From assembly GCF_002368415.1 (NCBI RefSeq), contig NZ_AP018290.1, positions 1,987,470 through 2,051,469 on the forward strand: a stretch of 64,000 bases of DNA, read 5' to 3'. The notes beneath the pieces are model-generated. The model was not told the DNA's origin. It was given only the letters and a program-made list of their open reading frames with translations, and did no database searches. Source of the stretch: Calothrix sp. NIES-4105. GTDB lineage: Bacteria > Cyanobacteriota > Cyanobacteriia > Cyanobacteriales > Nostocaceae. Positions 16,891 through 32,250 of this stretch are shown here, one piece after another (position 1 is the stretch's first letter; every line of letters begins with the position of its first letter). Made by a program: the position numbers and the translations under genes.

Positions 16891-17988
16891 ATGACGCTAA
16901 TATTAACATTTTTAGGTAAAAGCAGTACCGCACGGACTAAAATTGCAATTGCTGCTGCAATGAAGCACGCGCGCGAGGGTAAACGAGTACTGTTAGCAGG
17001 TGGTACTGAACCAGCAATACAAACTTTGTTGGGAACAACCCTATCCAATGAACCTCAAGAAGTTGCACCTAACTTACAAGCAGTACAACTGCAAGCAAGT
17101 ACGCTACTTGAAAGCAGTTGGGAAGAAGTCAAAAAACTCGAAGCGCAGTATCTAAGAACACCAATTTTAAAAGAAGTGTACGGTCAAGAGCTTGCTGTAT
17201 TACCAGGAATGGATGCAGCTTTGGCATTGAACGCAATTCGTCTATTTGATGAAAGCGGTAAATATGACACAATTGTTTACGATGGCACTGGTGACTCTAC
17301 AACTTTACGATTACTCGGTTTACCTGAATCATTAAGTTGGTACGTGCGACGATTTAAACAGTTATTTGTAAACTCTGATTTAGGCAAAGCTATTTCTGAC
17401 TCACCTTTGGTTCAACCTCTAATTGGTACCTTTTTTAATATCAACTGGACATCTGATAATTTTTCTGGGCCGACCAATATGGCAAATAATTTACTCGATA
17501 AGGGTAAAGCTGCACTTGCCGACCCCAGGCGAATAGCTGCTTTTGTGGTAACAAACGATGACCCGGTTGAAGTCGCAGTTGCTCGTTATTTATGGGGTAG
17601 CGCACAATTAGTAGGATTAACTATAGGTGGTGTTATAAATACAGGCACCGCTTCAAATTCAACTTTAAACGAATTTGACCCTTTACCGATCACCAGCGTC
17701 CCTGATGGAACTGTTGGTCAATGGGAAGCAATGGTAGACGCTTTACCCGACTTCGTAGCGCAAGCAACACAGGCGCCCAAACCAGTTGAAATTGATACAA
17801 ATACTCGTCAGGTACGTTTGTTCTTACCAGGATTTGACAAAAAGCAAGTTAAACTAACTCAATACGGGCCTGAAGTAACCGTAGAAGCAGGAGACCAACG
17901 CCGGAATATAGTTTTACCTCCTTCATTGAGTGGAAAACCAGTAGCTGGCGCCAAGTTTCAGAATGGTTATTTGATAATCTCATTTTAA
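16891..17988 (+). CDS. Get3/ArsA-like ATPase with C-terminal crystallin-like domain (Get3d type)
   Basis: 365 residues. The N-terminal deviant P-loop reads FLGKSSTARTKIA, where GKGGVGKT is usual. The first Lys is kept, but the Gly pair is Ser-Ser and the second Lys is Arg. YDTIVYDGTGDSTTLRLLGLPE matches the switch region of ArsA/Get3. The last 75 residues (IDTNTRQVRLFLPGF...QNGYLIISF) resemble the alpha-crystallin-like domain of plant/cyanobacterial Get3d. Known family role: client or lipid handling at membranes. Whether this copy hydrolyses ATP is open. It lies upstream of chlG in the same direction. Confidence 0.75.
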   Translation: MTLILTFLGKSSTARTKIAIAAAMKHAREGKRVLLAGGTEPAIQTLLGTTLSNEPQEVAPNLQAVQLQASTLLESSWEEVKKLEAQYLRTPILKEVYGQELAVLPGMDAALALNAIRLFDESGKYDTIVYDGTGDSTTLRLLGLPESLSWYVRRFKQLFVNSDLGKAISDSPLVQPLIGTFFNINWTSDNFSGPTNMANNLLDKGKAALADPRRIAAFVVTNDDPVEVAVARYLWGSAQLVGLTIGGVINTGTASNSTLNEFDPLPITSVPDGTVGQWEAMVDALPDFVAQATQAPKPVEIDTNTRQVRLFLPGFDKKQVKLTQYGPEVTVEAGDQRRNIVLPPSLSGKPVAGAKFQNGYLIISF

Positions 17989-18127: not shown

Positions 18128-19126
18128 ATGTCAGAAACACCCATTACTCCATCTACTGAAGAAGTCACAACGGTTGACCGTAGTGCAAAAGCCAGACAAT
18201 TACTGGGGATGAAAGGCGCCGCATCTGGTGAAAGCTCGATATGGAAAATTCGCCTGCAATTGATGAAGCCGATTACGTGGATACCCTTAATTTGGGGTGT
18301 TGTATGTGGCGCCGCTTCAAGTGGCGAATATACATGGACGCTGGAAAATGTTCTTAAGTCATTGACTTGTATGTTGCTGTCGGGACCACTGATGGCAGGA
18401 TATTGTCAAATACTTAATGATTACTATGATCGAGAAATTGACGCGATAAACGAACCTTACCGTCCTATACCAAGTGGCGCCATTTCTATACCCCAAGTAA
18501 TTACTCAAATTTGGGTATTGTTAATAGCGGGTTTAGTTTTAGCGTTTGCTCTCGATAAATGGGCTGGTAATAGTTATCCCACTATCACAACTATTGCTGT
18601 TATTGGCGCCATTATTTCATATATCTACTCGGCGCCACCTTTAAAGTTAAAACAGAATGGTTGGCTTGGTAGTTATGCACTCGGCGCCAGTTACATTACT
18701 TTTCCTTGGTGTACCGGTCATGCATTATTTGGCTCATTACACTGGCAAATCATAGTTCTGACTATGTTTTACAGTTTGGCAGGTTTAGGAATCGCCATTG
18801 TTAATGACTTTAAGAGTGTGGAAGGAGACTCAAAACTCGGACTGAAATCACTCCCTGTTATGTTCGGTGTCCAAACTGCCGCTTGGATTTGTGTATTGAT
18901 GATTGATATATTTCAAGCTGGGATTGCTGTTTACCTCATTTCTATACACCAACAACTGTATGCAGCGATTTTGTTACTGCTCGTCATTCCTCAAATTACA
19001 TTCCAAGATATGTACTTTTTGCGTGACCCGTTAAATAACGATGTTAAATACCAAGCATCAGCGCAACCGTTCCTCGTTTTAGGAATGCTTGTCACTGGTA
19101 TAGCATTAGGTCACGCTGGAATTTAA
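18128..19126 (+). CDS. chlG: Chlorophyll a synthase
   Basis: 332 residues; UbiA-family membrane prenyltransferase that esterifies chlorophyllide a with phytyl/geranylgeranyl diphosphate. The first Asp-rich motif is NDYYDREIDAINEPYRPIPSG and the second is NDFKSVEGDSKLGLKSLPV; about eight membrane segments. Length and both motifs match ChlG. Ends before a short GC hairpin with T-run. Confidence 0.95.
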   Translation: MSETPITPSTEEVTTVDRSAKARQLLGMKGAASGESSIWKIRLQLMKPITWIPLIWGVVCGAASSGEYTWTLENVLKSLTCMLLSGPLMAGYCQILNDYYDREIDAINEPYRPIPSGAISIPQVITQIWVLLIAGLVLAFALDKWAGNSYPTITTIAVIGAIISYIYSAPPLKLKQNGWLGSYALGASYITFPWCTGHALFGSLHWQIIVLTMFYSLAGLGIAIVNDFKSVEGDSKLGLKSLPVMFGVQTAAWICVLMIDIFQAGIAVYLISIHQQLYAAILLLLVIPQITFQDMYFLRDPLNNDVKYQASAQPFLVLGMLVTGIALGHAGI

Positions 19127-19142
19127 TAGATAAATTGTGTTG

Positions 19143-19169
19143 AGGCGCTTAATCTAGGCGCCTTTATTT
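19143..19169 (+). terminator. Putative chlG terminator
   Basis: AGGCGC (19143-19148) pairs with GCGCCT (19158-19163), loop of nine bases, followed by TTTATTT. Short stem, 17 bases after the chlG stop. Confidence 0.6.
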
Positions 19170-19350
19170 AATTACTAGTAGCATAGGCCTTCTTCGCCTG
19201 TGCAGTAATGTAGTAATGTATTTTTTTACCACAGAGGCACAGAGAACACAGAGAGGGATTGTTTGAACCAATAGGTGAATACACTAATGTAGCTTACTAC
19301 TTCGTTATGTAGTACTGTATATATATATTACAATAAAGATAAGGGAAGGG

Positions 19351-20682
19351 ATGACCAAATCTGTCTCCATGCCTAAAATAATCGTATTTACAATTTTCTG
19401 GGTTGGGCAAATTATCTCACTTGTTGGTTCTGGAATTACTGGATTTGCTCTCGGTATATCGATTTATGAAAAAACAGGTTCAACTACTCAGTTGGCACTA
19501 ATTTCGCTGTTTTCTACGTTGCCTGGGATTGTACTATCACCGATTATCGGTGTTCTAATAGACCGCTGGCAACCACGTTTGACAATGATATTTAGTAGCT
19601 GTGTGGCTGCAGCAATAACGCTATGTTTAGCATTGCTATTTTTGGCAAACAAGCTTAATATTTGGTACATCTATTTTGGTGTATATATTATTTCTATTTG
19701 CAGCGCCTTTCAGAATATAGCTAATACTGTGGCAATTACGTTAATTGTTCCAAAACAGCACCTTGGTCGCGCGAGTGGTATGCTACAAATCGGAGAAGCT
19801 TCATCAAGGCTTTTTTCTCCTGCGCTTGCTGGTGTACTTGTTTTAAACTTCAAAATTCAAGGTGTTCTTCTAATTGATTTTATTACTTACCTATTTGCAA
19901 CTGCAACGCTTTTAATAGTTCAGTTCCCTAAAACCAAAATTATTACTGAAAGTACTGAGAGTAACGATAATAATAAAGATAACAAGAACTCTATATTGTT
20001 TCGTGAAGCTTTTGATGGCTGGAATTATATTGTGGCACGTCCCGGTTTGCTAGGACTGTTAATATTTTTTGCTATTGGTAATTTTGTATTGGGAATGGCT
20101 AGCATATTAATTACACCAATGCTTCTAGCGTTCACTTCAGCCGCAGTACTTGGTAATGTGCTGTCTATTGGAGGTAGTGGTATGCTTATTGGCACTATTG
20201 TAATGAGCGTATGGGGAGGTCCAAAGAACCGCATTTATGGCATGTTTTACTTTGGATTACTGCAAGGAATTTTTATAATTTTCATTGGGTTACGACCTTT
20301 AATACCGCTGATTACGTTAGCTTGCTTTAGCGTTTTTTTTACTATTCCAATTATTAATGGCTGTAGTCAGGCAATTTGGCAAACTAAAGTACCCAAAGAA
20401 ATGCAAGGAAGAGTTTTTGCAACACGAAGAATGGTTTCTTGGTTGTCTTTTCCCCTTGCTTATGTTTTAGCTGGACCTTTAGCTGATTATGTTTTTGAGC
20501 CACTTCTTGCAGTAAACAGTCCCTTGGCTAGTAATGTTGGTAAAATTATTGGTGTTGGAGCAGGACGAGGTATTGGTTTATTGTTTGTAGTGCTAGGAGC
20601 GCTTACTTTTGTCGCAGTTTGTTGTAGCTACTTTTACAAAAGCTTGCGGTTTATTGAAAAAGAATTACCAGATGTAGTCTAG
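19351..20682 (+). CDS. MFS transporter (macrolide-efflux-like)
   Basis: 443 residues with about twelve hydrophobic segments. The loop 2-3 motif reads GVLIDRWQPRLTMI (variant of the MFS A-motif), and the last third has MQGRVFATRRMVSWLSFPLAYVLAGP, typical of the MefA/DUF-type efflux MFS group. Preceded by about 220 bases with a dispersed GTAGCATAGGC repeat. Likely exports a small hydrophobic compound; substrate unknown. Confidence 0.82.
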   Translation: MTKSVSMPKIIVFTIFWVGQIISLVGSGITGFALGISIYEKTGSTTQLALISLFSTLPGIVLSPIIGVLIDRWQPRLTMIFSSCVAAAITLCLALLFLANKLNIWYIYFGVYIISICSAFQNIANTVAITLIVPKQHLGRASGMLQIGEASSRLFSPALAGVLVLNFKIQGVLLIDFITYLFATATLLIVQFPKTKIITESTESNDNNKDNKNSILFREAFDGWNYIVARPGLLGLLIFFAIGNFVLGMASILITPMLLAFTSAAVLGNVLSIGGSGMLIGTIVMSVWGGPKNRIYGMFYFGLLQGIFIIFIGLRPLIPLITLACFSVFFTIPIINGCSQAIWQTKVPKEMQGRVFATRRMVSWLSFPLAYVLAGPLADYVFEPLLAVNSPLASNVGKIIGVGAGRGIGLLFVVLGALTFVAVCCSYFYKSLRFIEKELPDVV

Positions 20683-20693
20683 TAGTCTAGTAG

Positions 20694-20710
20694 GGTGGGC
20701 ACTGCCCACC
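20694..20710. repeat. GGTGGGC-ACT-GCCCACC inverted repeat
   Basis: Seven-base arms around ACT between two convergent genes. A related copy is at 46228-46244, and shorter GGTGGC/GCCACC forms are at 29770-29830 and 50630-50650. It may serve as a bidirectional transcript end. Confidence 0.7.
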
Positions 20711-20724
20711 ATACGTCTAGCGTG

Positions 20725-22014
20725 CTACATAGACATAGCCGTGATTTTAGGTTTATATAACAAGTTGCGAGTTGCCACCATTGCTGTCACTAAACGCTCC
20801 ATATCTTCTACAGTATGAAGGGCATTAGCAGTAATCCGAATTCTGGGTTTAGCAACGAACCAAATTGGAGACACCCAAATACCGTGGTCTTTCATAATGT
20901 GTCTAGCAAAAACCTTTGGATTAATTTCTAATGGTAAGATTACTGGTATGACATTTGTCTCACCAATGGCATCAAAATCATGTTCAGCTAAACGCGCGCG
21001 TAAGTAACGAGTATTTTCCTGAAGTTTTTTGACTAGTTCTGGAGATTTGCGACAAATACGAATACTTTCTAACGCTGCTGCAGTAGTTGGTGGTGGTAAA
21101 GAAATTGTACCAATAGAAGTAGGAGAAACGTTTAAAAGTGGTTTTAATTCGGCAATATGGCTACTAATTGCAGCTCCTGCAGAGGCAGCAAACTTTGAAA
21201 AAGTAGTCATTATTAGGGGTGCTATACCTTTTTGGATAGCATCAGACGGCAGAATTTCAAAATGCTCGTAAATCCCTCTTCCAGTGGCGCCAATAGCTCC
21301 GCTTGCATGAGCCTCATCCATTACTAACACGCTACCAGGGTAATTTTGCAGCACTGAAAGCATATCTGGTAGAGGTGCAATATCACCGTCCATTGAAAAG
21401 ACAGCATCCGAGACAACCATAATTCTGTCGTTAGGACGCGCGTGACGAGATAATTTGCTAGCTAAGTTTTCGACATCACAATGGCGGTAAGCTTTAACTC
21501 GAACTCCAGGACTATGACTAAACACTTTGCCAGAGCGAGTTTTAGCATTAACAATTGCTGAGACAATACAACCATGATTAAGAACATCAGTGAGAATCAA
21601 AGTCTCTCGATGGTTTTGAAATCCTGGAACTGGAATTGCAAAGTGACAAAAAGCATCCATAAGGGCCTGCATTGCCATCCAAGCATTCATAAATAGCTGC
21701 GTGTAGGGAAGATGCTTAAAAGCTGAAATTTCATCTTCTAACTGTCGGTGCAAATCAATGCGACCGCTTAAAACTGAACAGGAACTATTAGACGTTCCGT
21801 ATTTAAGAATGGCATCAATAGCAGCTTGTTTAACCGCTTCTTCTTGCACTAAACCTAAGACATCATTGCTACAGAAGCTAAGAACTTTTATACGTGTACC
21901 AGTTGCTACTTCTTCTATTTCAACAAAATTACCCTGTTTTTGATAGCAAATATATTCGTCCGGGTCTAGTCCACTTTTATACCAACGCTGAACATAATCT
22001 TGAATAAGTTCCAC
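20725..22014 (-). CDS. Alpha-oxoamine synthase family aminotransferase (serine palmitoyltransferase / AONS-like)
   Basis: 429 residues; PLP-dependent fold-type I. Seen: DVLNHGCIVSAI (His stacking on PLP), VSDAVFSMDGDIAPL, VMDEAHASGAIG (Asp binding pyridine N), and TTFSK with the Schiff-base Lys at residue 274. Family members condense an amino acid with an acyl-CoA or acyl-ACP: BioF, KBL, ALAS or Spt. The TFSK context resembles Spt. No other biotin gene is nearby, while lipid-modifying genes surround it. I therefore infer long-chain-base formation; BioF-like chemistry is the alternative. It lies downstream of the Rieske gene, 48 bases away, on the same strand. Confidence 0.8.
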   Translation of the reverse strand: MELIQDYVQRWYKSGLDPDEYICYQKQGNFVEIEEVATGTRIKVLSFCSNDVLGLVQEEAVKQAAIDAILKYGTSNSSCSVLSGRIDLHRQLEDEISAFKHLPYTQLFMNAWMAMQALMDAFCHFAIPVPGFQNHRETLILTDVLNHGCIVSAIVNAKTRSGKVFSHSPGVRVKAYRHCDVENLASKLSRHARPNDRIMVVSDAVFSMDGDIAPLPDMLSVLQNYPGSVLVMDEAHASGAIGATGRGIYEHFEILPSDAIQKGIAPLIMTTFSKFAASAGAAISSHIAELKPLLNVSPTSIGTISLPPPTTAAALESIRICRKSPELVKKLQENTRYLRARLAEHDFDAIGETNVIPVILPLEINPKVFARHIMKDHGIWVSPIWFVAKPRIRITANALHTVEDMERLVTAMVATRNLLYKPKITAMSM

Positions 22015-22062
22015 TAATACACTCCTACACTATTCTCTAACTTGACAGACATTAGTTTATGG

Positions 22063-23103
22063 TTAGCTAGATTGTATAAATTCTTTATACTGCCGGACAA
22101 TCAACCGCTGGGCAGCAATAATCGCTGGGTTAATTTCTACATAGCGTCGATGGGGGTTAGCGAGGTAATTTCGTTGTTCACTTTCAACCATCTCAATGTC
22201 TTGAGCTAGAAATTTCAACAAAAACAAGCGTTGAATTACTATTTGCATCAGTGGTTTAAGTTGAGTGAGTATCCATTTAGGAAAACGAACTTTGAAAAAG
22301 AAGAAAGCAAAAGACCGAGTTTCGACTTGCCCTACGGGTAGTCGCATCAAATATAAACTGGAAATTCCTTGGAGAGAAGTATAAAAGTGAGGATAACGAT
22401 ACTTAATAGAAACAGGCAAGGTTGTTACTTGGTCTGCATGTTCGCTCAACCCTAAGAACTTGGCTAGGCGCCCTTTATAAGAAACTTTATATTCAGCGCA
22501 AACTGAAGAAGGCGTCTCTTGTAGATTAATTAAGATTGGATCGAACCAGCCTTGCAACTTCTGATGCAGAAAACCATGAAAAACGTCTAGGGTGTTTTCA
22601 TTGCACATCGAAAAATGCGCTTGGAAGTGTGCAGTAACAGGTACCATTAACCAGTCAGGCTCATCAAATTCTGGAATTAAAGGTAGTTCGGGTGCAACAG
22701 CGTTACCAGGAAAAATCCAGATAAGACCGTATTTTTCCTGAACTGGAAAACTACGAGCTTGAGCGTGTGGAAGTTTCTGCCCTTCTGGAAGGTAGGGAAT
22801 ACTGACGCATTCACCATTACCGTTGAATTCCCAACCATGATAACCACAAGCCAAGTTACAGTCTTGGACTTTCCCTTTATGTAAAGCTACACCCTTATGA
22901 GGACAAGCATCCTCTAAAGCATGAAGTCGTGCTTGGGCATCGCGATATACAGCAATTGCTAAGTGCCAAATCATCACGGGTATTATCTTACCAATTTTAA
23001 GTTGGCTTGCCCAAGCTACAGGATACCAGTAATTTGGGTTAATGCCTACTTCTCGGATATTATTTTGAATTGTCTCGCTTTTTAAGGTCGTGGCTAGTTC
23101 CAT
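22063..23103 (-). CDS. Rieske non-heme iron oxygenase
   Basis: 346 residues. Rieske [2Fe-2S] ligands C67-x-H69 and C86-x2-H89 (CPH...CGYHGW). The catalytic iron site is at NENTLDVFHGFLH, with the second His in that stretch. Known family reactions: hydroxylation, demethylation or desaturation using O2 and an external reductase. First gene of a minus-strand pair with the alpha-oxoamine synthase. A role in oxidising the lipid product is inferred. Confidence 0.85.
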   Translation of the reverse strand: MELATTLKSETIQNNIREVGINPNYWYPVAWASQLKIGKIIPVMIWHLAIAVYRDAQARLHALEDACPHKGVALHKGKVQDCNLACGYHGWEFNGNGECVSIPYLPEGQKLPHAQARSFPVQEKYGLIWIFPGNAVAPELPLIPEFDEPDWLMVPVTAHFQAHFSMCNENTLDVFHGFLHQKLQGWFDPILINLQETPSSVCAEYKVSYKGRLAKFLGLSEHADQVTTLPVSIKYRYPHFYTSLQGISSLYLMRLPVGQVETRSFAFFFFKVRFPKWILTQLKPLMQIVIQRLFLLKFLAQDIEMVESEQRNYLANPHRRYVEINPAIIAAQRLIVRQYKEFIQSS

Positions 23104-23641
23104 TTGCTTGTACCTATGTTAACTGTTATGTTAGGTTGGGGGCTTTATATGCCAAATTTTTCAATCTGGCGCCTGAACTTAGCTTGACAAAGAAATGAAT
23201 ATGTGTTTTATAGTCCTCTTTCTTAAATCGAAGGCTAGAAAAATATCCTTATAATTAGCATAAATGTGTAAATAAACGTAAGCAAAATCAACTTCTAAAC
23301 TTTTTTCTCTAATTTAGACCATTTGTATTATAAGCCTTTGGGAGGATGTGTAAAAACTGCTTTTGTGAATAACCAGTCTAATCTGTTTTATAAACAAAAT
23401 TTTTCTTAGCACATTTAGCAATCACCATAAAACATGGTAAAAGTAAATTATTCATAACAGCTATACACGAGTTATCAACAATAGTTTAAAGTTCCAACGC
23501 TTATATTTATTTAACGGCAAGGCTCGCTATCCAAATTTTCCGTTCGGTAAATTCAGCAGTGGTTTAGGTTTAAACCATAAAATCAAACTTATGTCAATGC
23601 ATGACTTGTAAAAATTTGAAAAATTTTAAGGAGAAGCATCG
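23104..23641. promoter_or_regulatory. Divergent intergenic region of the lipid-like cluster
   Basis: 538 AT-rich bases between divergent operons. It must hold both promoters. No ORF or RNA gene is evident. An AAGGAG Shine-Dalgarno lies at 23629-23634, just upstream of the plus-strand start. No clear operator recognised. Confidence 0.45.
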
Positions 23642-24145
23642 ATGCTGCTGCTAACGAAGCTTACCGTAGGAATTGCTTGTTTTGCTCTAGCGTTTATCAT
23701 GGCAAGTTTAGTGGAATATTGGTTACATCGTTTGATGCATGTTTCACAACGAATCGGTGAACGTCATCGCGACCACCACCGTCGAAATGAAGGTCAGGGT
23801 GTGGTGTGGGAGTTTCGCGACTATGTTAAAGGCAGCTTTGTTGTTATGGTTGTAATGTTTTTCTACTCGTGGGAAGCAGGAATTGGTTGGTTCCTTGGTG
23901 GACTAGTTTATGCTGCATTTTCAGCCTACGCCCATCAATTACAGCATGAAAACCCGATTAAATGCTTTTGGATGAAGATGCCCGTTCACTATGTGCATCA
24001 TAAATATGGTATGTGGCATCACAACTTTGGTTTGGCTGTAGATTGGTGGGATCATGTTTTTGGCACCTACAAACAAGTGGAATGGTTAACAGAAGAAGAA
24101 TTAAAGCAATCTGAACAAGGTTATTTGGAATTGCGTTGGTGGTAA
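23642..24145 (+). CDS. Fatty acid hydroxylase superfamily membrane di-iron protein
   Basis: 167 residues with three or four membrane segments and the histidine boxes of the sterol desaturase/FA hydroxylase family: HRLMH, HRDHHRR, HQLQH and HYVHHKYGMWHHN. These bind a di-iron centre that hydroxylates an alkyl chain or carotenoid ring with O2. CrtZ-type carotenoid hydroxylases have a similar layout, so that is an alternative. The context (alpha-oxoamine synthase, DUF962) favours a fatty-acid or long-chain-base target. Confidence 0.82.
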   Translation: MLLLTKLTVGIACFALAFIMASLVEYWLHRLMHVSQRIGERHRDHHRRNEGQGVVWEFRDYVKGSFVVMVVMFFYSWEAGIGWFLGGLVYAAFSAYAHQLQHENPIKCFWMKMPVHYVHHKYGMWHHNFGLAVDWWDHVFGTYKQVEWLTEEELKQSEQGYLELRWW

Positions 24146-24250
24146 ATATATCTGAAATCGCAACATTTATTATTATTTCTTGCTTCCGCACGGTTGCTTA
24201 AATATTTGTAAATATCTCTAAAATTAGAGTGTAAATCGGGGAAAATCACT

Positions 24251-24565
24251 TTGAACCATTTCCAAGATGCAAAAGCCCACTTTATTGCAAGTCATCAGCA
24301 TCCTATCAACCAGATATTGCACCATTTAACTAATCTGCTGGCAATTGCAGCTTTTATTTTATTGTTTTACGATTGGCGCCTGACAGTTGTTGCAGTGGTG
24401 TTAACCCAAGTGTTTGCTCTGGGTGGACACGCATTCTTCGAGAAAAATGAACCTGCTTTTGTTAAATATCCTGGCATTGTCATCCTAGTCTCGATAATGT
24501 GGTCTTTCGAGAATTGGTTTGGTCTGCGCTCGGTTTGGCAATATTTTAACCAGAAAACGATTTAA
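24251..24565 (+). CDS. DUF962 / Mpo1-like membrane protein
   Basis: 104 residues from a TTG start. It shows the DUF962 pattern: H-x2-PINQILHHLTN near residue 17 and GGHAFFEKNEPAFVKYP near residue 55, between two hydrophobic segments. The yeast member Mpo1 is an Fe-dependent dioxygenase that shortens 2-hydroxy fatty acids from phytosphingosine breakdown. Position after a fatty-acid hydroxylase suggests a hydroxylation and alpha-oxidation pair; that is inference. Confidence 0.75.
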   Translation: MNHFQDAKAHFIASHQHPINQILHHLTNLLAIAAFILLFYDWRLTVVAVVLTQVFALGGHAFFEKNEPAFVKYPGIVILVSIMWSFENWFGLRSVWQYFNQKTI

Positions 24566-24589
24566 TTACGTAAATTAGGTAACAAAATT

Positions 24590-25993
24590 ATGTATCAAGG
24601 TTTACTAGTAATTGATGCTGATGCTCATAAAATAGAAAACCCTTTGGTAATGCGAGATTATCTAGAGCCAGAGTATCGTGAACGCATTGGTCTTGTGATT
24701 GATGGTTTAGGAGATCAACGCGCGCGGATAGTAGATGTTAATCCTGCAACCGGGCAAAATTTTATGCGGATGTTCCCTCAACCTCAAGGACTTGGTAAAG
24801 GGGGTTTTCGGAACTTGCATCCAGATACTACTTTAGGTGCAATGTTTAATCGGGTACGAATTGAACACATGGACTCTGAAGGAATTGATGTTCAAGTGAT
24901 TTATGGCACACTTAATTTAGTTTTTTCTAGCCTTTTGGATAAAGACCTAGCAATTGCCCTTTGTCGGGCTTACAACAACTATATTGCCGAAGATTGCCGA
25001 GGGTATGATAATCGCCTTAAACCGATTGGTGTGTTACCTTTACAAGATGTAGACGCGGCAGTTGCTGAGATGCACCGTTGTATTAATGAACTTGGCATGA
25101 TTGGTGTAGCCGTTGCTCCTAATTTACCAATTCCACATCCCAAGGCGCCTGAAGCTTTTCCAGAAATTCGTACTTGCAAAACAATTAGCCACCCTGACTT
25201 TGCACCACTATTACAAGCTGCTGTAGACCTTGACATTGCAATTGGTATCCACGGCGGTCCAGGTTCATATATGGTAGGTGGTATTTCTGACCATACCGAA
25301 ACTTTTATACTCTCCCATATTTTTGTGCAGCGCAATCAGCAGCAATTAGCATTAGCGCGAATGGTGTTTGATGGAGTATTTGAGCGCTTTCCTACGCTAC
25401 GAGTCGGCTTTTTAGAAGGGGGTTGCGGTTGGTTGCCAGATTTAGCACATGCTTTTCATGAACATTGGGAAAAACGCATTCGTGACTTTGACCCCAAGCA
25501 TCCTTATCGCCCTTCCTTGATGGAATTTACTAAATTAATGATTCAGGAAAGAGGTAGCCACAATAATATTAATATGATTAGTCAGGCTAAAAACCTGTTT
25601 GATTTGCTGTGGAATGCTCAACACGACCCGACTAAAATTGACGACGCTAGCTTGTATGAACACTATGACCTACGCCATCGCGACCCGTTAGAGTATTTTG
25701 AACGGGGTCAAATATTTACTTCATTTGAGTCAGATGACCCCAGTCCCGCTTATTTACATATTGGGATGGGTGAAGTCGGTAAGCGGTTGGCTTGTTTCTC
25801 TGGTGATTACGGACACTGGGATGGTGTATTGCATAACTGCGTTAAAGATGCGGCTGAAGTTGCCGATTACTCTACTGAGCATTTAGGTTTACTACTTGGT
25901 GGTAATGCTCTAGCACTTTATGGAGATCGTCTGCGTAAGTCTCTACCTGTATCAGTTCAAACATCAAATGTTTCTCTAGCCCAACATATATAA
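24590..25993 (+). CDS. Amidohydrolase-2 family metal-dependent hydrolase
   Basis: 467 residues, TIM-barrel. VIDADAHKIE at residue 8 corresponds to the DxH metal motif, IGIHGGPGSY to the central His, and FLEGGCGWLP, then FSGDYGHWDG to the late Asp. Family members (ACMSD, gamma-resorcylate decarboxylase) hydrolyse or decarboxylate. Length is above the usual 300-400 because of an insertion at about residues 290-370. It is in a tight plus-strand series, 24 bases after the DUF962 gene. Substrate unknown. Confidence 0.8.
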   Translation: MYQGLLVIDADAHKIENPLVMRDYLEPEYRERIGLVIDGLGDQRARIVDVNPATGQNFMRMFPQPQGLGKGGFRNLHPDTTLGAMFNRVRIEHMDSEGIDVQVIYGTLNLVFSSLLDKDLAIALCRAYNNYIAEDCRGYDNRLKPIGVLPLQDVDAAVAEMHRCINELGMIGVAVAPNLPIPHPKAPEAFPEIRTCKTISHPDFAPLLQAAVDLDIAIGIHGGPGSYMVGGISDHTETFILSHIFVQRNQQQLALARMVFDGVFERFPTLRVGFLEGGCGWLPDLAHAFHEHWEKRIRDFDPKHPYRPSLMEFTKLMIQERGSHNNINMISQAKNLFDLLWNAQHDPTKIDDASLYEHYDLRHRDPLEYFERGQIFTSFESDDPSPAYLHIGMGEVGKRLACFSGDYGHWDGVLHNCVKDAAEVADYSTEHLGLLLGGNALALYGDRLRKSLPVSVQTSNVSLAQHI

Positions 25994-26012
25994 TTAAAGG
26001 ATTGGTGTAAAA

Positions 26013-27587
26013 ATGCGAGTTTTACTTCTATATCCGCTTTTTCCTAAATCCTTCTGGTCTTTTGATAAAGCTTTAGAACTAATTGGACGTAAAGTATCAT
26101 TCCCACCTTTAGGAATGATTACAGTCGCGGCTATTCTACCTCAAACTTGGGAGTTTCGTTTGGTAGACCGCAATGTTCGGGACGAAACTGATGCAGATTG
26201 GAATTGGGCAGATTTGGTAATTATTTCTGGGATGATTGTCCAGAAACCAGATATGCTGCACTTAATTCGTTTGGCAAAGCGGCGAGGCAAACTTGTTGTA
26301 GTGGGTGGCCCCTATGTTACATCTGTTCCTCAAGCAGTAGAAGAAGCAGGCGCCGATTTTTTAGTTGTGGACGAAGGTGAGATTACCTTACCAATGCTAG
26401 TGGAGGCATTAGAAAGAGGCGAAACATCGGGAGTGTTTAGTGCCAAAGGAGAAAAGCCTGATGTTACTCATACACCAATCCCTAGATATGACCTGCTCGA
26501 TTTAAAAGCATACAGCGACATGTCCGTACAATTTTCGCGCGGTTGCCCGTTTCAGTGCGAGTTCTGCGACATTATTGTACTTTATGGACGTAAGCCACGT
26601 ACTAAAACACCTACGCAACTGCTAGCTGAATTGCAGGTTCTTTATGACTTGGGCTGGCATGGTTCTATTTTTGTAGTTGATGATAATTTCATTGGCAACA
26701 AACGTAATGTCAAGCTTTTACTGCGCGAACTAGCTCCCTGGATAGCTGCTCACGGTTATCCGTTCCGTTTCTCAACAGAAGCTTCAGTAGATTTGGCGCA
26801 AGATCAAGAGCTACTAGATTTAATGGTTGCCGCCAACTTTAGTGCTGTATTTTTGGGTATTGAGACACCAGATACAGATAGCTTGGCTCTAACTCAAAAA
26901 TTTCAAAATACACGTCACTCTCTTGTAGAGTCAGTGCAAATAATTAATCGAACAGGTCTACGAGTAATGGCTGGTTTCATCATTGGCTTTGATGGTGAAA
27001 AGGCAGGGGCAGGTGAGCGCATTGTCAATTTTGTTGAAGCAACTGCAATTCCTCAAGCAATGTGTAGTATGCTGCAAGCTTTGCCAAACACGGCACTCTG
27101 GCATCGACTTGAAAAAGAAGGGCGCCTATTGTCTGAGGATGTTGGTATTCACCAAGCCACGCTTACCAATTTTATCCCCACTCGTCCTTTAGAGGAACTA
27201 GCACGCGAGTATGTGAAATGTTTTTGGGAACTGTACGAACCGCAGCGCTATCTAGCAAGAGTCTGGCGCCATTTTATCGAGATGAAACCAAGTCCTCACA
27301 AAAAGAATTTTCGCATACCAGAGTTAAAGCACATCCGGGCATTGCTGATTCTTTGTTGGCGCCAAGGTGTTAAACGCAGTGTACGCTTTCAATTTTGGCG
27401 CCAGTTATTTTCTATTATTCGGCATAATCCAGGAGTGCTTGAATCGTATTTAATTAATTGTGCCCTTTTAGAACACTTCATCGATTACCGCATGATTGTT
27501 CGGGAAGAAATAGAAGCACAACTAGCTCAATATATAGCTGTGACAAATCTTAAAAATCACAAATATCAGACAACTATCGCAAGTTAG
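26013..27587 (+). CDS. B12-binding radical SAM protein (DUF4070/HpnP-related)
   Basis: 524 residues. The N-terminal cobalamin-binding Rossmann domain starts RVLLLYPLFPKSFWSF. The radical SAM cluster motif is RGCPFQCEFCDII (CxxxCxxC). The C-terminal region resembles DUF4070. The group includes the hopanoid C-2 methylase HpnP, so methylation of an unactivated carbon of a lipid is plausible. Orthology to HpnP itself is not established. It lies 19 bases after the amidohydrolase and 12 before the GNAT gene. Confidence 0.82.
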   Translation: MRVLLLYPLFPKSFWSFDKALELIGRKVSFPPLGMITVAAILPQTWEFRLVDRNVRDETDADWNWADLVIISGMIVQKPDMLHLIRLAKRRGKLVVVGGPYVTSVPQAVEEAGADFLVVDEGEITLPMLVEALERGETSGVFSAKGEKPDVTHTPIPRYDLLDLKAYSDMSVQFSRGCPFQCEFCDIIVLYGRKPRTKTPTQLLAELQVLYDLGWHGSIFVVDDNFIGNKRNVKLLLRELAPWIAAHGYPFRFSTEASVDLAQDQELLDLMVAANFSAVFLGIETPDTDSLALTQKFQNTRHSLVESVQIINRTGLRVMAGFIIGFDGEKAGAGERIVNFVEATAIPQAMCSMLQALPNTALWHRLEKEGRLLSEDVGIHQATLTNFIPTRPLEELAREYVKCFWELYEPQRYLARVWRHFIEMKPSPHKKNFRIPELKHIRALLILCWRQGVKRSVRFQFWRQLFSIIRHNPGVLESYLINCALLEHFIDYRMIVREEIEAQLAQYIAVTNLKNHKYQTTIAS

Positions 27588-27599
27588 AGTTTTAATTCA

Positions 27600-28745
27600 A
27601 TGATAACTCAAGCAGCAAAATTTGGTATTCGGTCTGTCGAAACTAAGGCAGAACTTCAAATGTTCCTGGATGTTCCAGTCAGGATATATAAAAATGATCC
27701 TCACTGGGTTCCACCAATCCAGAGCAGTATCGAAAAGCAATTTGAACCGACAAATTCTTTCTTGGAATACGGTAAATTACAACAGTTTATAGCCGTATCT
27801 CAAGAAGCAGAACCTCAAACATTAGGACGTATTGTTGCCGCAGTAAATCAGCGGTTAATAAAGCGTGAAAATCAAAATGTTGGTTTATTTGGCTTTTTTG
27901 AATGCGTTGAAGATTTTGCTATAGCTCAAGCTTTGTTAGATGCTGCCTGCAAATGGTTACGAGAACAAGGAATGAACGTAGCTAGAGGCCCTATCGACCT
28001 TTCCACCCACAATAACTGTTTCTTTTTAGTGGATGGATTTGATACTCCGCCTATAATAATGATGCCTTATAATCCGCCTTACTATCCTAAATTTATGGAG
28101 GAGGATGGCTGGCAGAAAGCTAAAGATGCCTATGCTTATAATTTACCTTTAGATAAACCTTTATCAGAAGAATTTGAAAAAGGTTATCGAATTGCTTGTA
28201 AATCTGGTGTTAACTTCCGTCCAGTCAACACCAAAAAGAACGAATTTGAGCAAGATGCGACTAGTATATATCACCTTTTTAATCGTGCCTTCGCTAATAA
28301 TTGGAGTTCGACACAGCGAACCTTAGCAGAATTTATGGAAGAAGCCAAAGATCTAAGAGATTTGATAGACCCAGACATTTTTAAGATTGCCGAATACAAT
28401 GGGGAAATGGTCGGCTTTTTTATGGGATTACCCGATTATAATATTCCGCTGAAACACGTGAATGGAAAACTAAACTGGTTAGGAATTATTAAGTTTCTTT
28501 GGTATCGCCGTCAAATTGATAAAGCGCGAGTAATTGCAATTTGCTCTTTACCAGAGTATCGTCAGAAAATGCTACCTTTAGCATTAATTTATTTAGGAAT
28601 GCAAGGTGGGACACAAAAAAACAAACCCTATAAAAGAGCCGAACTTTCGTGGGTTTATGAAGACAATTTGCCGTCTCGTAAATTAATTGAAGCAACTGGC
28701 GCCAAAATTTATAAAACCTACCGAATTTACGAAAAAATATTATGA
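27600..28745 (+). CDS. GNAT-fold N-acyltransferase-like protein, candidate ceramide synthase (bCerS-like)
   Basis: 381 residues of the NDPHWVPP family: YKNDPHWVPPI near residue 31, GFFECVEDFAIAQALLDAA, ARGPIDLSTHNN, FDTPPIIMMPYNPPYY and a C-terminal GNAT-like half (LSWVYEDNLPSRKLIEATGA). Known: the Caulobacter bacterial ceramide synthase bCerS is a GNAT-fold acyltransferase acting with Spt and CerR. Inference: this gene fills that role, as it stands beside an alpha-oxoamine synthase and an extended SDR. Its stop overlaps the next start (ATGA), so the two are coupled. Confidence 0.65.
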   Translation: MITQAAKFGIRSVETKAELQMFLDVPVRIYKNDPHWVPPIQSSIEKQFEPTNSFLEYGKLQQFIAVSQEAEPQTLGRIVAAVNQRLIKRENQNVGLFGFFECVEDFAIAQALLDAACKWLREQGMNVARGPIDLSTHNNCFFLVDGFDTPPIIMMPYNPPYYPKFMEEDGWQKAKDAYAYNLPLDKPLSEEFEKGYRIACKSGVNFRPVNTKKNEFEQDATSIYHLFNRAFANNWSSTQRTLAEFMEEAKDLRDLIDPDIFKIAEYNGEMVGFFMGLPDYNIPLKHVNGKLNWLGIIKFLWYRRQIDKARVIAICSLPEYRQKMLPLALIYLGMQGGTQKNKPYKRAELSWVYEDNLPSRKLIEATGAKIYKTYRIYEKIL

Positions 28746-29701
28746 AAGCGTTAGTTACTGGCGCCAATGGATTTACAGGTTCTCATTTGGTACAAGCTCT
28801 ACAAAACCAAGGTAACACTGTAGTGGGATTAGTACGTAAATCTAGCAATTTAGCAAGTCTCTCTAACTACAACGTGCAACTGGTTTCTGGTGATATCACT
28901 GATAGAGATGCCTTGCGAACTGCAATGACTGGTGCAGACACGGTTTTTCATACTGCTGCTTATGTAGAGATAGGAATTGTTAACGAGGCAGAAATGAAGC
29001 GGGTAAACGTAGAAGGTACGCGGGCAGTGCTAGAAGTAGCACGAGCTGTTGGTGTATCCAAAATAGTTTACTGTAGCACGATTGGTGTATTCGGGGATAC
29101 AAAAGGTGAAGTTATAAATGAAACCTTTACTAGGGTACAAAAAGACTTTTCCTCTGCTTATGACCGTACCAAATACCAAGCCCAGCAAATAGTAGACGAA
29201 TTTGCCAAAAGCGGTCTAAACGTCGTCAGCATTCTTCCGTCTGGAATATTTGGTTCTGATGACCCCCATTTTGGCCCAGTAATACAGCAATTTTTGAAAG
29301 GACGACTCAAAGTGTGGGCTGGTGGCGCCCGCATTACAGGTATTGTTCATGTAGACGACTTAGCGAATGCGATGATTTTAGCGGCAGAAAAAGGTAAACC
29401 AGGAGATTACTATATTATTTCTGCGGGAGAACTAACCACTAGCGAAATGTTTCAGATTCTCTCGCAAAAATCAGGCATTCCAGTTCCTCACGAGATACCA
29501 GAAGCTTTAGTTCGACTTGCAGGAAACTTACTCGAACCCATTGGACGCTTTTCAAACTGGCAACCACCCATCAGCCGAGAACGTGTTCATTACATCTATG
29601 ACCGCTGTGTTCGAGTAGACGCGACCAAAGCTTACAATGAACTTAACTGGCGCCCTCGTTCAGTCCTAGAAACTTTGATTGAGTCAGCAAATCTTAAATA
29701 A
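28742..29701 (+). CDS. Extended SDR / NAD-dependent epimerase-dehydratase, candidate 3-ketosphinganine reductase (CerR-like)
   Basis: 319 residues. Rossmann start ALVTGANGFTGSHLV, DITDRDAL, YCSTIGVFG and catalytic YDRTK (YxxxK). Family options are sugar epimerase, dihydroflavonol-4-reductase-like enzyme, hopanoid-associated HpnA or the bacterial ketosphinganine reductase CerR, which is of this same type. Translationally coupled to the acyltransferase by a 4-base overlap. Last gene of the plus-strand series; dispersed repeats follow. Confidence 0.75.
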   Translation: MKALVTGANGFTGSHLVQALQNQGNTVVGLVRKSSNLASLSNYNVQLVSGDITDRDALRTAMTGADTVFHTAAYVEIGIVNEAEMKRVNVEGTRAVLEVARAVGVSKIVYCSTIGVFGDTKGEVINETFTRVQKDFSSAYDRTKYQAQQIVDEFAKSGLNVVSILPSGIFGSDDPHFGPVIQQFLKGRLKVWAGGARITGIVHVDDLANAMILAAEKGKPGDYYIISAGELTTSEMFQILSQKSGIPVPHEIPEALVRLAGNLLEPIGRFSNWQPPISRERVHYIYDRCVRVDATKAYNELNWRPRSVLETLIESANLK

Positions 29702-29767
29702 TAACAATCTCTCTACAGAAAGACGTAAAGGATATAGAACTAAGAGCTAATATTTATTTATACTCCA

Positions 29768-29835
29768 GTAAGGTGGCTATGCCACACCTACGTAAAATTT
29801 CAGAAGTAAGGTGGCTATGCCACCCTACGTAGAAT
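29768..29835. repeat. Dispersed GGTGGCTATGCCACC repeats
   Basis: Two copies of AAGGTGGCTATGCCAC followed by CCTACGTA-like bases, about 45 bases apart, in the gap after the SDR gene. Short inverted repeats of the same broad family as 20694-20710. Confidence 0.7.
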
Positions 29836-29887
29836 TTCATAAATCAAACGAAATCCTATAATTCAAGTTCTTTTACCAAATTTTACT

Positions 29888-30175
29888 GTGTTGCAATTAT
29901 TTTTCAATCTAATTAGCGCAATTCAACCTTTTCTCGTCCCTATTTGTTTTGTAGGCGCCTGGAGCTTAGTAACTCTTACGCTTTGGAGTTTATGGTCAGC
30001 CACACGCGCGAGTATATCGACAGCAAAGCAAATGCATCAAATTCCCTGTTCAGGTTGCCAATACTTTACTGCCGACTATCGCCTTAAATGTACCATCCAT
30101 CCCTCAATAGCAAGTACCGAAGAAGCAATTAGTTGTATGGATTATCAGCCCAAGACAAATCCTATGTATTATTAA
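29888..30175 (+). CDS. Small cysteine-motif membrane protein, conserved hypothetical
   Basis: 95 residues from a GTG start (a TTG codon follows immediately). One membrane segment at residues 8-35, then a soluble tail with CSGCQYF...LKCTIHP...CMDYQP, four Cys that could bind a metal or form disulfides. No function recognised. Its end overlaps the end of the convergent dehydrogenase by 14 bases. Confidence 0.6.
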   Translation: MLQLFFNLISAIQPFLVPICFVGAWSLVTLTLWSLWSATRASISTAKQMHQIPCSGCQYFTADYRLKCTIHPSIASTEEAISCMDYQPKTNPMYY

Positions 30176-31121
30176 CTTCGAGTAAAACCTTCATAACACC
30201 TCTTGTTTTCGCTTGTTCAAACGCAGCAAGTCCTTCATCAAGAGGAAATATTGAATGAATAAGCGGTTTCACGTCTATTTTTCCTGTCGCTAACAATTCG
30301 AGTGCAGGTGCAAACGGGCCACAACGTGAACCAATTAGAGTTATCTCATCAACAACCAAAGCTGAAGCATCCAAGCTAAGATTACCTGCATAAGTGCTTT
30401 TCAATACTAATGTCCCGCGTGGACGTAAAGCGTGACGGGCAATATCAAACCCTTCATTATTACCAGTACATTCAACTGCAATATCAAAGTTACGTGTTTG
30501 TACGTCACTAACATAGCCAACTTTAATACCTTTAGCCTCTAAATTAGCGAGTTTCTCAGCATGGCGCCCAATAGCCAATAAATCACAACCAGTAAGCGCG
30601 AGTGTTTGAGCTACCAACTGTCCTAATTTACCATCCCCTACGATTAATACCTGGTGGTTGTTCGAGATTGATATTTGCTGCTGAATTTCCAAAGCTGCTG
30701 CTACAGGTTCAGTGAACGTTGCCACATCTGTAGGAACACTATCTGGAACTACATGTAAATTTTTTACAGGTAAAGATAAATAATCAGCAAAGGCGCCGTT
30801 GCGATTAACAATACCTAAAACCGTGCGGTTTTCACAGTGAGTAGGAATTCCCTTAAGACAATAGCGACATTTTCCACAAGCTGCATTAATTTCACCAACA
30901 ACCCGTTTGCCAACTAAATTATCTGGTCCACGTTCAACCACCCCGACAAATTCATGTCCTAAAACACCACTATAAGGATAATAACCGCGCGTTAGTTCAA
31001 GGTCAGTATTACATATACCCGCTTTACATACTCTCACCAAAGCTTCTCCTGAATCCGGTTTAGGAACTGGTATATCAGTACGAAGCTCAAGCAGTTGATT
31101 TTCTAACCAAAGTCCCTTCAT
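30162..31121 (-). CDS. Zinc-dependent medium-chain alcohol dehydrogenase
   Basis: 319 residues from ATG at 31121 (MKGLWLEN). An upstream in-frame start at 31238 would translate STRR and dispersed-repeat DNA, so it is rejected. Catalytic zinc ligands lie in GICNTDLE and GHEF; the structural zinc site is CGKCRYCLKGIPTHC; the NAD motif is VGDGKLGQLVAQ. Oxidises an alcohol or polyol with NAD(P); substrate unknown. Confidence 0.85.
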   Translation of the reverse strand: MKGLWLENQLLELRTDIPVPKPDSGEALVRVCKAGICNTDLELTRGYYPYSGVLGHEFVGVVERGPDNLVGKRVVGEINAACGKCRYCLKGIPTHCENRTVLGIVNRNGAFADYLSLPVKNLHVVPDSVPTDVATFTEPVAAALEIQQQISISNNHQVLIVGDGKLGQLVAQTLALTGCDLLAIGRHAEKLANLEAKGIKVGYVSDVQTRNFDIAVECTGNNEGFDIARHALRPRGTLVLKSTYAGNLSLDASALVVDEITLIGSRCGPFAPALELLATGKIDVKPLIHSIFPLDEGLAAFEQAKTRGVMKVLLEVNNT

Positions 31122-31132
31122 AAGTAAAAAGT

Positions 31133-31250
31133 ATAAAGTGCTGAGTGCTGAGTGTTGAGTGCTGAGTGCGGTGGAATGGGTCTTGTGGAATGGGCGTCCT
31201 CGCCCGTTCCTTATACCAGGGCGGGCAAGGATGCCCACTCCACAAGATAT
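31133..31250. repeat. STRR units and dispersed GGGCAAGGATGCCC repeat
   Basis: GTGCTGAG-type heptamers at 31138-31168 are followed by inverted TGTGGAATGGGC / GCCCACTCCACA arms (31190-31245) enclosing a GGGCAAGGATGCCC palindrome. Further copies of the palindrome lie at 43146-43175 and 52990-53022. Confidence 0.75.
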
Positions 31251-31341
31251 GTCATTCTACAATCAACTGAGTTTCTTCTTCTAATTAAGGTAGCAAATCG
31301 CGCGTCAAAACCGATATGCTAATTTTAAACAGGGTTAGACG

Positions 31342-32250
31342 ATGAAGAAAAGCTTTACACTTAACTTGACACCAATATTTGTCCTATCATTAGGATTCTT
31401 ACTTTATACTTTACCAGCAGGCGCCTTGCCGCAAATAGCAAAGACTTGTGATCGTTTTCCCCTTAGCAAGTGCGTCAACAGCGTTACCCAACTTATACCA
31501 GAAATTATACGAGCAAACGTAATATATCTAGGTGAAACACATGATAGCGCTCAAGACCACGAAAACCAATTAAAAATTATTCAAGAACTACATAGAAGAA
31601 ATAAAAAAATTGCTATCGCAATGGAAATGTTTCAGCGTCCCTTCCAAAATGTTATCAACGAGTACCTGGCAGGCAAAATAACTGAAGAGGAACTAGTTAA
31701 GCAAACTGAGTACGAACAACGTTGGGGTTTTGATTACTCACTATACGCACCCATTGTTAGATTTGCTAAAGAGAATAAAATACCAGTTTTAGCAACAAAC
31801 ACCCCCGCAGAAATTACCCGTAAAGTCGCGCGTCAAGGTTTAGAAAGCTTAACACCCGAAGAACGCAAGTTGATACTGCCATTTTCAGAAATTCGTACTT
31901 CTCCTGAAGAATACCGCAAAATGGTTTTAGCAGCATTTCAAGCGCATCAAAGTGCAGGACACGGAAAGAGTAGCAGCGCAGAAAGATTTTTCCTTGCACA
32001 AGTTCTATGGGACGAGACAATCGCGGAAAGCATCGCCAATTTTATAAAAGCTAATCGCGATTATCAAGTAGTTGTTTTAGCAGGACAAGGACATGTTGTT
32101 TACGATTATGGCATTCCTAGTCGCGTAGAACGGCGCCTGCAAGGTAAACAAATTACTCAACGTTCAGTATTATTAAGTCCACCAGAAGATAGTAATTTAC
32201 CTAAAAACAAACAAATAGCTGACTTTATCTGGCAAGTCAGAAATTTCTAA
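31342..32250 (+). CDS. ChaN/DUF399 family haem-iron-binding-like protein
   Basis: 302 residues with an N-terminal signal segment (residues 8-28, ends at GALP). VIYLGETHDSAQDHENQL, AMEMFQRPFQ and VVVLAGQGHVVYDYGIP are the DUF399/ChaN signatures. The ChaN lipoprotein of Campylobacter binds haem; many members are uncharacterised. Exported, probably periplasmic. No lipobox Cys is visible. Confidence 0.8.
   Translation: MKKSFTLNLTPIFVLSLGFLLYTLPAGALPQIAKTCDRFPLSKCVNSVTQLIPEIIRANVIYLGETHDSAQDHENQLKIIQELHRRNKKIAIAMEMFQRPFQNVINEYLAGKITEEELVKQTEYEQRWGFDYSLYAPIVRFAKENKIPVLATNTPAEITRKVARQGLESLTPEERKLILPFSEIRTSPEEYRKMVLAAFQAHQSAGHGKSSSAERFFLAQVLWDETIAESIANFIKANRDYQVVVLAGQGHVVYDYGIPSRVERRLQGKQITQRSVLLSPPEDSNLPKNKQIADFIWQVRNF

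Follow-up and report, generated by a model that had tools for sequence, protein, structure and literature searches.

The window analysed here is a 64,000-nucleotide stretch of contig NZ_AP018290.1 of the cyanobacterium Calothrix sp. NIES-4105, and its positions 20725–29701 hold eight genes in two divergent, tightly spaced runs that, judging from their sequences, very probably form part of a ceramide-type amino-lipid pathway that is found widely in the class, begins with a divergent enzyme and includes tailoring by oxygenases. The minus-strand run consists of a PF00155 alpha-oxoamine synthase (AONS; 20725..22014), which carries a TTFSK motif with Lys274 and is proposed to perform the first condensation, and, 48 bases away, a Rieske-type non-haem iron oxygenase (22063..23103; PF00355 and VanA_C) with CxH...CxxH and DxxHxxxH motifs. 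The plus-strand run lies 538 bases from it and encodes a small membrane hydroxylase of the FA_hydroxylase family (23642..24145; PF04116, with histidine boxes); an Mpo1-like (DUF962) protein with a TTG start (24251..24565; PF06127, 51.5 bits against a cut-off of 24); an Amidohydro_2 family enzyme of the ACMSD-like superfamily (24590..25993; PF04909); a B12-binding radical SAM protein with DUF4070 (26013..27587; PF02310, PF04055 and PF13282; CxxxCxxC), a putative methylase or other tailoring enzyme; a bCerS/YghO-family N-acyltransferase with a predicted tandem GNAT fold (27600..28745); and an extended short-chain dehydrogenase/reductase (SDR; 28742..29701; PF01370/PF01073) with TGxxGxxG and YDRTK (YxxxK) motifs, a proposed 3-keto reductase in a CerR-like role. 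The gaps within this second run measure, in order, 105, 24, 19 and 12 bases, and the acyltransferase and SDR genes overlap by ATGA. All eight open reading frames exist in the arrangement described by an initial annotation of this DNA, and the Pfam family of each protein, together with its motifs, agrees with the name given there, the GNAT match of the acyltransferase being marginal (23.0 bits against a cut-off of 20.7). The nearest named relatives of the cluster genes are cyanobacterial, and the source genome (12.0 Mb) holds a second AONS away from the window.

The strongest clue to the pathway is the acyltransferase, whose predicted activity is N-acylation of a long-chain base. By sequence it belongs to the YghO/bCerS family over its full length: a tblastn search against plasmid records matched it to Escherichia coli YghO (28.3% identity, query coverage 97%, E 6e-35 to 2e-34), and gave 44 records in all, 41 of them with a query coverage of 80% or more. 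Next to yghO, E. coli strain 120899 carries the genes for Spt, a fatty acyl-AMP ligase, an SDR and an acyl carrier protein, and the figure 9 legend of PMC9386255 gives yghO and Caulobacter CC_1154 as the same dihydroceramide N-acyltransferase gene; the equivalence is taken from that legend, our own comparison being with YghO. A PDB search up to E 1 found no sequence relative of the acyltransferase, and its AlphaFold model (pLDDT 90.3) has tandem GNATs as best fold matches, with query-normalised TM scores of 0.58–0.60. Full-length YghO homology and the predicted fold bear out the earlier proposal that this GNAT-like protein is a bCerS relative. In a quick tree of 52 family members, the cyanobacterial acyltransferases form one clade within the bCerS/YghO family. 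Around many other members, chiefly those of Bacteroidota, the stretch fetched holds no AONS, so that family membership alone does not prove a role in ceramide synthesis.

Further evidence comes from co-inheritance. In 388 genomes of the class, sampled from a larger group and including that of the window, the acyltransferase has matches in 125, four of which hold only a 26–30% paralog, leaving 121, and an AONS ortholog is present in 120. Both genes occur in 117 genomes, the acyltransferase alone in 4, the AONS alone in 3 and neither in 264; six of the seven one-gene genomes are 69–93% complete, the seventh being an acyltransferase-only genome (G080; G and L numbers are our handles for genomes and loci) that is 100% complete. 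The two genes lie within 10 kb of each other in 43/117 carriers, so their link is not one of mere proximity. To follow the other genes we picked a panel of 80 genomes: from the 117 carriers, one with a completeness of 95% or more for each of 40 genera, and from the 264 non-carriers another 40, of which 20 come from the window's own family and one (G017) is 88% complete. The genomes are related and not independent, and the phylogeny is uncorrected, so that Fisher values for co-occurrence are descriptive only. An SDR ortholog (58–77% identity) is present in 40/40 carriers and 0/40 non-carriers, four non-carriers having 33–34% paralogs; the Rieske ortholog (at least 55% identity) in 33/40 and 0/40, with 35–38% paralogs in 14 non-carriers; and the hydroxylase in 39/40 carriers (it is missing from G019) and 1/40 non-carriers (G283, 55%). 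Since just seven of the 39 carriers with a hydroxylase have it within 10 kb of the AONS (read by eye), its near-perfect tracking deserves attention. The amidohydrolase occurs in 17/40 carriers and the radical SAM protein, at more than 70% identity, in 14/40, each against 0/40 non-carriers; the 70% threshold for the radical SAM protein was chosen post hoc, with the table in view, and some match (E up to 1e-100) is found in 71 of the 80 genomes. A GH3-type acyl amide ligase (L061 6128–7852 and relatives) is likewise present in 32/40 carriers and 0/40 non-carriers; it has no match in the window's own genome and is thereby ruled out as part of the window locus. Co-occurrence in other cyanobacteria, which the initial annotation had named as a check on its reading, thus holds widely in the class. 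Within the window's own family, an AONS ortholog is found in 30/217 genomes, counting its own, and the other listed members of its genus, six in number, are without one, a patchiness that makes gain by transfer or repeated loss likely.

By synteny as well as co-occurrence, the genes recur together beyond chance. A search with the acyltransferase gave 70 named loci, 35 of them cyanobacterial; the fetched stretch also contains an AONS in 20 of these 35, and the Rieske gene in 15 of the 20, the others being partly short contigs and partly genomes in which the genes lie apart. Baaleninema simplex PCC 7105, Aliterella atlantica CENA595 and Phormidesmis priestleyi BC1401 are among the named carriers. 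One other genome (L155) holds all eight window genes together in about 12 kb, in the order amidohydrolase, Mpo1, hydroxylase, radical SAM, GH3, MFS, Rieske, AONS, acyltransferase, SDR. Among 16 loci picked by hand, several of them for the known closeness of their genes, the hydroxylase, Mpo1 and amidohydrolase genes are contiguous in seven (L155, L156, L157, L158, L161, L162 and L163), with Mpo1 in the middle, and an eighth (L160) has the Mpo1–amidohydrolase pair; the GH3 ligase is near the hydroxylase in several loci. Outside the cyanobacteria, AONS, acyltransferase and SDR genes are adjacent in Rubrobacter and Streptomyces plasmids and in six Bacteriovorax-type loci (L099, L102, L104, L106, L111 and L112), and Acidisoma has an SDR–AONS–FA_hydroxylase row beside a bCerS-family gene. 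Genes for an ABC transporter ATPase and an FtsX/MacB-type permease were seen in 9 and 5, respectively, of 36 clustered sources, near the SDR except in L080; they adjoin it in L063 (12093–14449), L069, L071 and L076, are presumably DevA/DevC-like, and might encode a lipid exporter.

The two oxygenases and the accessory enzymes could be placed at family level. The hydroxylase scores 50.9 bits in Pfam against a cut-off of 31, and in the PDB, allowing E up to 1, it matches nothing but the yeast ceramide hydroxylase SCS7, and that weakly (E 0.0016 and 0.0039 in phmmer); as a profile of 16 hydroxylase relatives reaches SCS7 at E values of only 0.041 and 0.086, this likeness is a hint, and the structure model of the protein is poor (pLDDT 64.9). 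PF06127 is matched by 9/9 aligned members of the Mpo1-like family, the window's included, and the best PDB match of the amidohydrolase is DitZ, followed by ACMSD. A hopanoid methylase role for the radical SAM protein found weak NCBIfam matches only (HpnR, 70 bits against 650), with no HpnP model among the matches.

The AONS retains the residues expected of its superfamily. H147, D233, H236, K274 and R393 are invariant in 21/21 cyanobacterial and 30/30 other sequences; these catalytic His, Asp, His, Lys and Arg are common to all AONS, hence not Spt-specific. By its sequence the enzyme falls into a separate, deep cyanobacterial subfamily below every family cut-off. In a 41-row tree that includes 11 cyanobacterial AONS, 4 serine palmitoyltransferases (SPTs) and 14 other AONS encoded in loci that also hold a bCerS-family gene, the cyanobacterial sequences form one clade (100/100) on a stem of length 2.37. 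On SPT models the window AONS scores 172.3, 141 and 98.8 bits against cut-offs of 640, 500 and 670, missing all of them; E. coli Spt passes (599.9/500), but the SPT cut-offs are missed as well by those AONS of Rubrobacter, Streptomyces, Ignavibacteriales and Acidisoma that are encoded next to bCerS-family genes or in their vicinity.

From the observed family-level gene identities, intact catalytic motifs, co-inheritance, synteny and bCerS-family membership we infer a scheme in its entirety: product, amino acid, substrates, order of steps and every reaction. The locus probably makes a ceramide-type lipid by means of the AONS, the bCerS-family acyltransferase, the SDR, the hydroxylase and the Rieske enzyme. 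The AONS would form a 3-keto long-chain base by condensation of an amino acid and a long, activated acyl chain, the acyltransferase would place a second acyl chain on the amine, and the SDR would reduce the 3-keto group; the membrane hydroxylase would act on the N-acyl chain or the base, and the Rieske oxygenase would contribute a further oxidation. The Mpo1-like protein, which would fit a 2-hydroxy acyl product, the amidohydrolase and the B12-radical SAM enzyme would serve as optional tailoring or turnover functions. The predicted product is best read as a long-chain-base lipid that is N-acylated and hydroxylated. Serine may be the amino acid used; with so divergent an AONS, it may also be alanine, cysteate or another.

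Several results weigh against this reading. Among curated models, BioF is the best match of the window AONS (235 bits, against 172 for the best SPT model), one of the outcomes that the initial annotation had named as refuting its reading; the score is, however, under the BioF cut-off of 426.45, and as the second AONS of the genome passes that cut-off (453.7 bits), the window enzyme is not the biotin enzyme and a BioF identity is ruled out. In the tree, the cyanobacterial AONS fall outside a 99/98 clade that unites the 4 SPTs with 13/14 of the other bCerS-locus AONS; the fourteenth, L126, about 7 kb from its GNAT gene, groups with Kbl. At two positions they depart from all other sequences compared: V52 (20/21 cyanobacterial AONS) replaces a Tyr found in 30/30 others, and G302 stands where 30/30 others have Phe or Tyr. 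T270, A111, G148 and K389 also distinguish the clade, and from these changes the enzyme would appear to combine intact AONS chemistry with an altered substrate pocket. The window SDR is 23–31% identical to SDRs of bCerS-linked loci, plus 35% over 161 residues in L102, and its identity to other SDRs of the panel genomes (33–35%) is no less. Its best model is HpnA, the sugar-epimerase type of match that had been named as a warning sign; the SDR of the E. coli sphingolipid operon has the same best model, so this test does not discriminate. By sequence the SDR is without specific kinship to CerR, and what stands of its proposed equivalence are the extended-SDR family, the active-site motifs and co-inheritance with the AONS and bCerS genes. 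A hopanoid (HpnA) or sterol-demethylase (SdmA/SdmB) reading of the SDR and Rieske enzyme was rejected, with scores far under the cut-offs (207.7/367.65, 218.9/600 and 149.9/600). Furthermore, no acyl carrier protein was found in 19000–31500, where the one free open reading frame of at least 50 residues is without a DSL-type motif, and no acyl-ACP (acyl carrier protein) synthetase is among the cluster genes; Rhodobacteria are described in PMC9386255 as using both. Finally, the single AONS of Nostoc punctiforme, annotated as BioF, yielded no 3-keto-sphinganine in E. coli, and a search of that species for sphingolipids, which did not extend to branched forms, turned up no unbranched ones (PMC8895605). 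The long-chain-base lipid first proposed is thus backed by the AONS/bCerS/SDR core, the presence of a hydroxylase in the set and co-occurrence, and is let down by the SPT cut-offs and by the lack of CerR kinship.

One special case of the ceramide-type reading is that the AONS is a very divergent SPT and the products are serine-derived dihydroceramides, which are sphingolipids in the narrow meaning of the term. The company of bCerS-family and SDR genes speaks for it, as does a topology test in which constraining the cyanobacterial AONS to the SPT-type clade was not rejected (p-AU 0.366), the long branches leaving their placement unsure; mooreaside A, a C17-base glucosylceramide of Moorea producens, is also reported to have a base of the serine type (PMC6272925). 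This must be set against the many conserved positions at which the AONS departs and against its standing below the housekeeping BioF of its own genome on SPT models (94 against 211 bits on NF047603, 172 against 329 on the CFB SPT model), such that an SPT-profile screen would rank BioF first in this genome. On balance we regard serine as a serious candidate that falls a little short of being expected.

A related N-acyl amino lipid built on another amino acid, such as a cysteate-derived sulfonolipid or an alanine-derived 1-deoxyceramide, is a second special case, to which the sequences lend somewhat less credence. It would account for the clade-wide pocket changes, including Arg85, present in 11/11 cyanobacterial rows at a position mostly taken by Thr, Asn or Ser in the rest; the PDB matches of the AONS include a cysteate acyltransferase (28eh), in 15th place after SPT and BioF/Kbl chains, and other amino acids have been proposed for Spt-type enzymes in work on the Black Sea (PMC11334938). 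We put forward, tentatively, that 117/388 sampled genomes of the class, about three in ten, have a so far overlooked amino-lipid pathway that includes oxygenase steps and in which a new AONS subfamily with a different substrate replaces SPT.

Less probable still is a diffusible natural product, in which an amino ketone made by the AONS would be acylated by the GNAT, decorated by the Rieske enzyme and the hydroxylase, and exported by an MFS protein. The Rieske enzyme has as nearest solved structures SxtDIOX and SxtT, which we take to be saxitoxin enzymes; a second conserved MFS gene is transcribed divergently from the Rieske or the AONS gene in 14/36 clustered sources (L155, L163, L166, L168 and others; L063 5934–7082), the window not among them; and B12-radical SAM and amidohydrolase genes are frequent in natural-product clusters. 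Such a product sits poorly with bCerS-family partners that elsewhere lie in ceramide operons, with a membrane hydroxylase kept near-universally among carriers, and with genes that are scattered in most of them, less like a product cluster. An ordinary biotin or housekeeping AONS with unrelated neighbours, for which one can cite BioF as its best NCBIfam model, can be set aside as extremely improbable given the separate BioF and the strict co-occurrence of the AONS with the acyltransferase.

The initial annotation held such a lipid to be undescribed in cyanobacteria. For the lipids this is too strong, as two ceramides are on record, one from Scytonema julianum and one from Moorea producens (PMC8895605, PMC6272925); to the extent that these papers detail them, both reports are without genes. 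For the gene set, no description was seen in titles and abstract openings among the matches listed, which covered few subscription papers. A Black Sea genome screen based on SPT extended to 40 phyla, and in its main text cyanobacteria are named once, in the reference list (PMC11334938); cyanobacterial homologs of human ceramide kinase have been reported (PMC10331486). The one cyanobacterial genetic study in the literature consulted picked BioF, the sole AONS of its species (PMC8895605). SPT-based screens could miss the new subfamily, picking BioF instead, and with cyanobacterial ceramides so far reported without genes, the present set predicts which strains should make the lipid and which should not. 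If correct, the reading would bring oxygenic phototrophs into bacterial ceramide-type synthesis, give the bacterial pathway a hydroxylase and be relevant to lipid biomarkers in mats and sediments.

Around the cluster, genes for chlorophyll synthase ChlG (18128–19126) and a Get3-fold ATPase (16891–17988), both exceeding NCBIfam cut-offs, lie just upstream, and an MFS gene at 19351–20682 differs from the one conserved in other loci. Of four proteins compared with PHROGs (AONS, acyltransferase, SDR and hydroxylase), the SDR alone matches, as a generic epimerase, and a phage origin was rejected. Within the window, the palindrome GGCGCC occurs 99 times, against 3.4 expected from base composition and 43.6 from sub-words, and CGCGCG 50 times against 19.2 expected from sub-words; these counts mark a HIP-like repeat word of the source genome, as observed within the window, and the octamer GCGATCGC, presumably the usual cyanobacterial HIP1, has zero copies in the 64 kb. 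Elsewhere, an AONS on a conjugative plasmid of Bacteroides ovatus (L132 3818–5053), neighboured by a TetR gene, groups with the Acidisoma AONS (97/79), on long branches and hence unsurely.

Among known systems, yeast SCS7 shares the FA_hydroxylase family and a weak PDB match with the window hydroxylase, and is very distant from it (298–392 residues in the crystallised proteins, 167 here); likewise very distant is yeast Mpo1, a 2-hydroxy-fatty-acid dioxygenase after which PF06127 is named. OlsH, a planctomycete GH3-like acyl amide synthetase that makes N-acyl ornithine (PMC12493201), is a GH3-type ligase of amino-lipid synthesis and invites comparison with the GH3-family gene of 32/40 carriers, but that account gives no tie to AONS products and the window genome has no GH3 match. 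The Rubrobacter and Streptomyces plasmid rows and the Bacteriovorax-type rows have the identical three genes in identical order; their AONS, however, fall with the SPTs, and none of the five other window proteins (Rieske, hydroxylase, Mpo1, amidohydrolase, radical SAM) has a match in the stretches fetched. The ceramide pathway of Caulobacter and E. coli (Spt, bCerS/Aca/YghO, CerR, AcpR and AasR) shares with the window a core of AONS, YghO-family acyltransferase and extended SDR, the acyltransferases being homologous over their full length. Localisation may differ, as Spt and bCerS are cytoplasmic and CerR periplasmic in Caulobacter according to PMC11087976, whereas the window SDR has no obvious signal peptide by eye. 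The window AONS belongs to another clade and its cluster is without AcpR and AasR, and to the shared core the window adds a membrane hydroxylase and a Rieske oxygenase.

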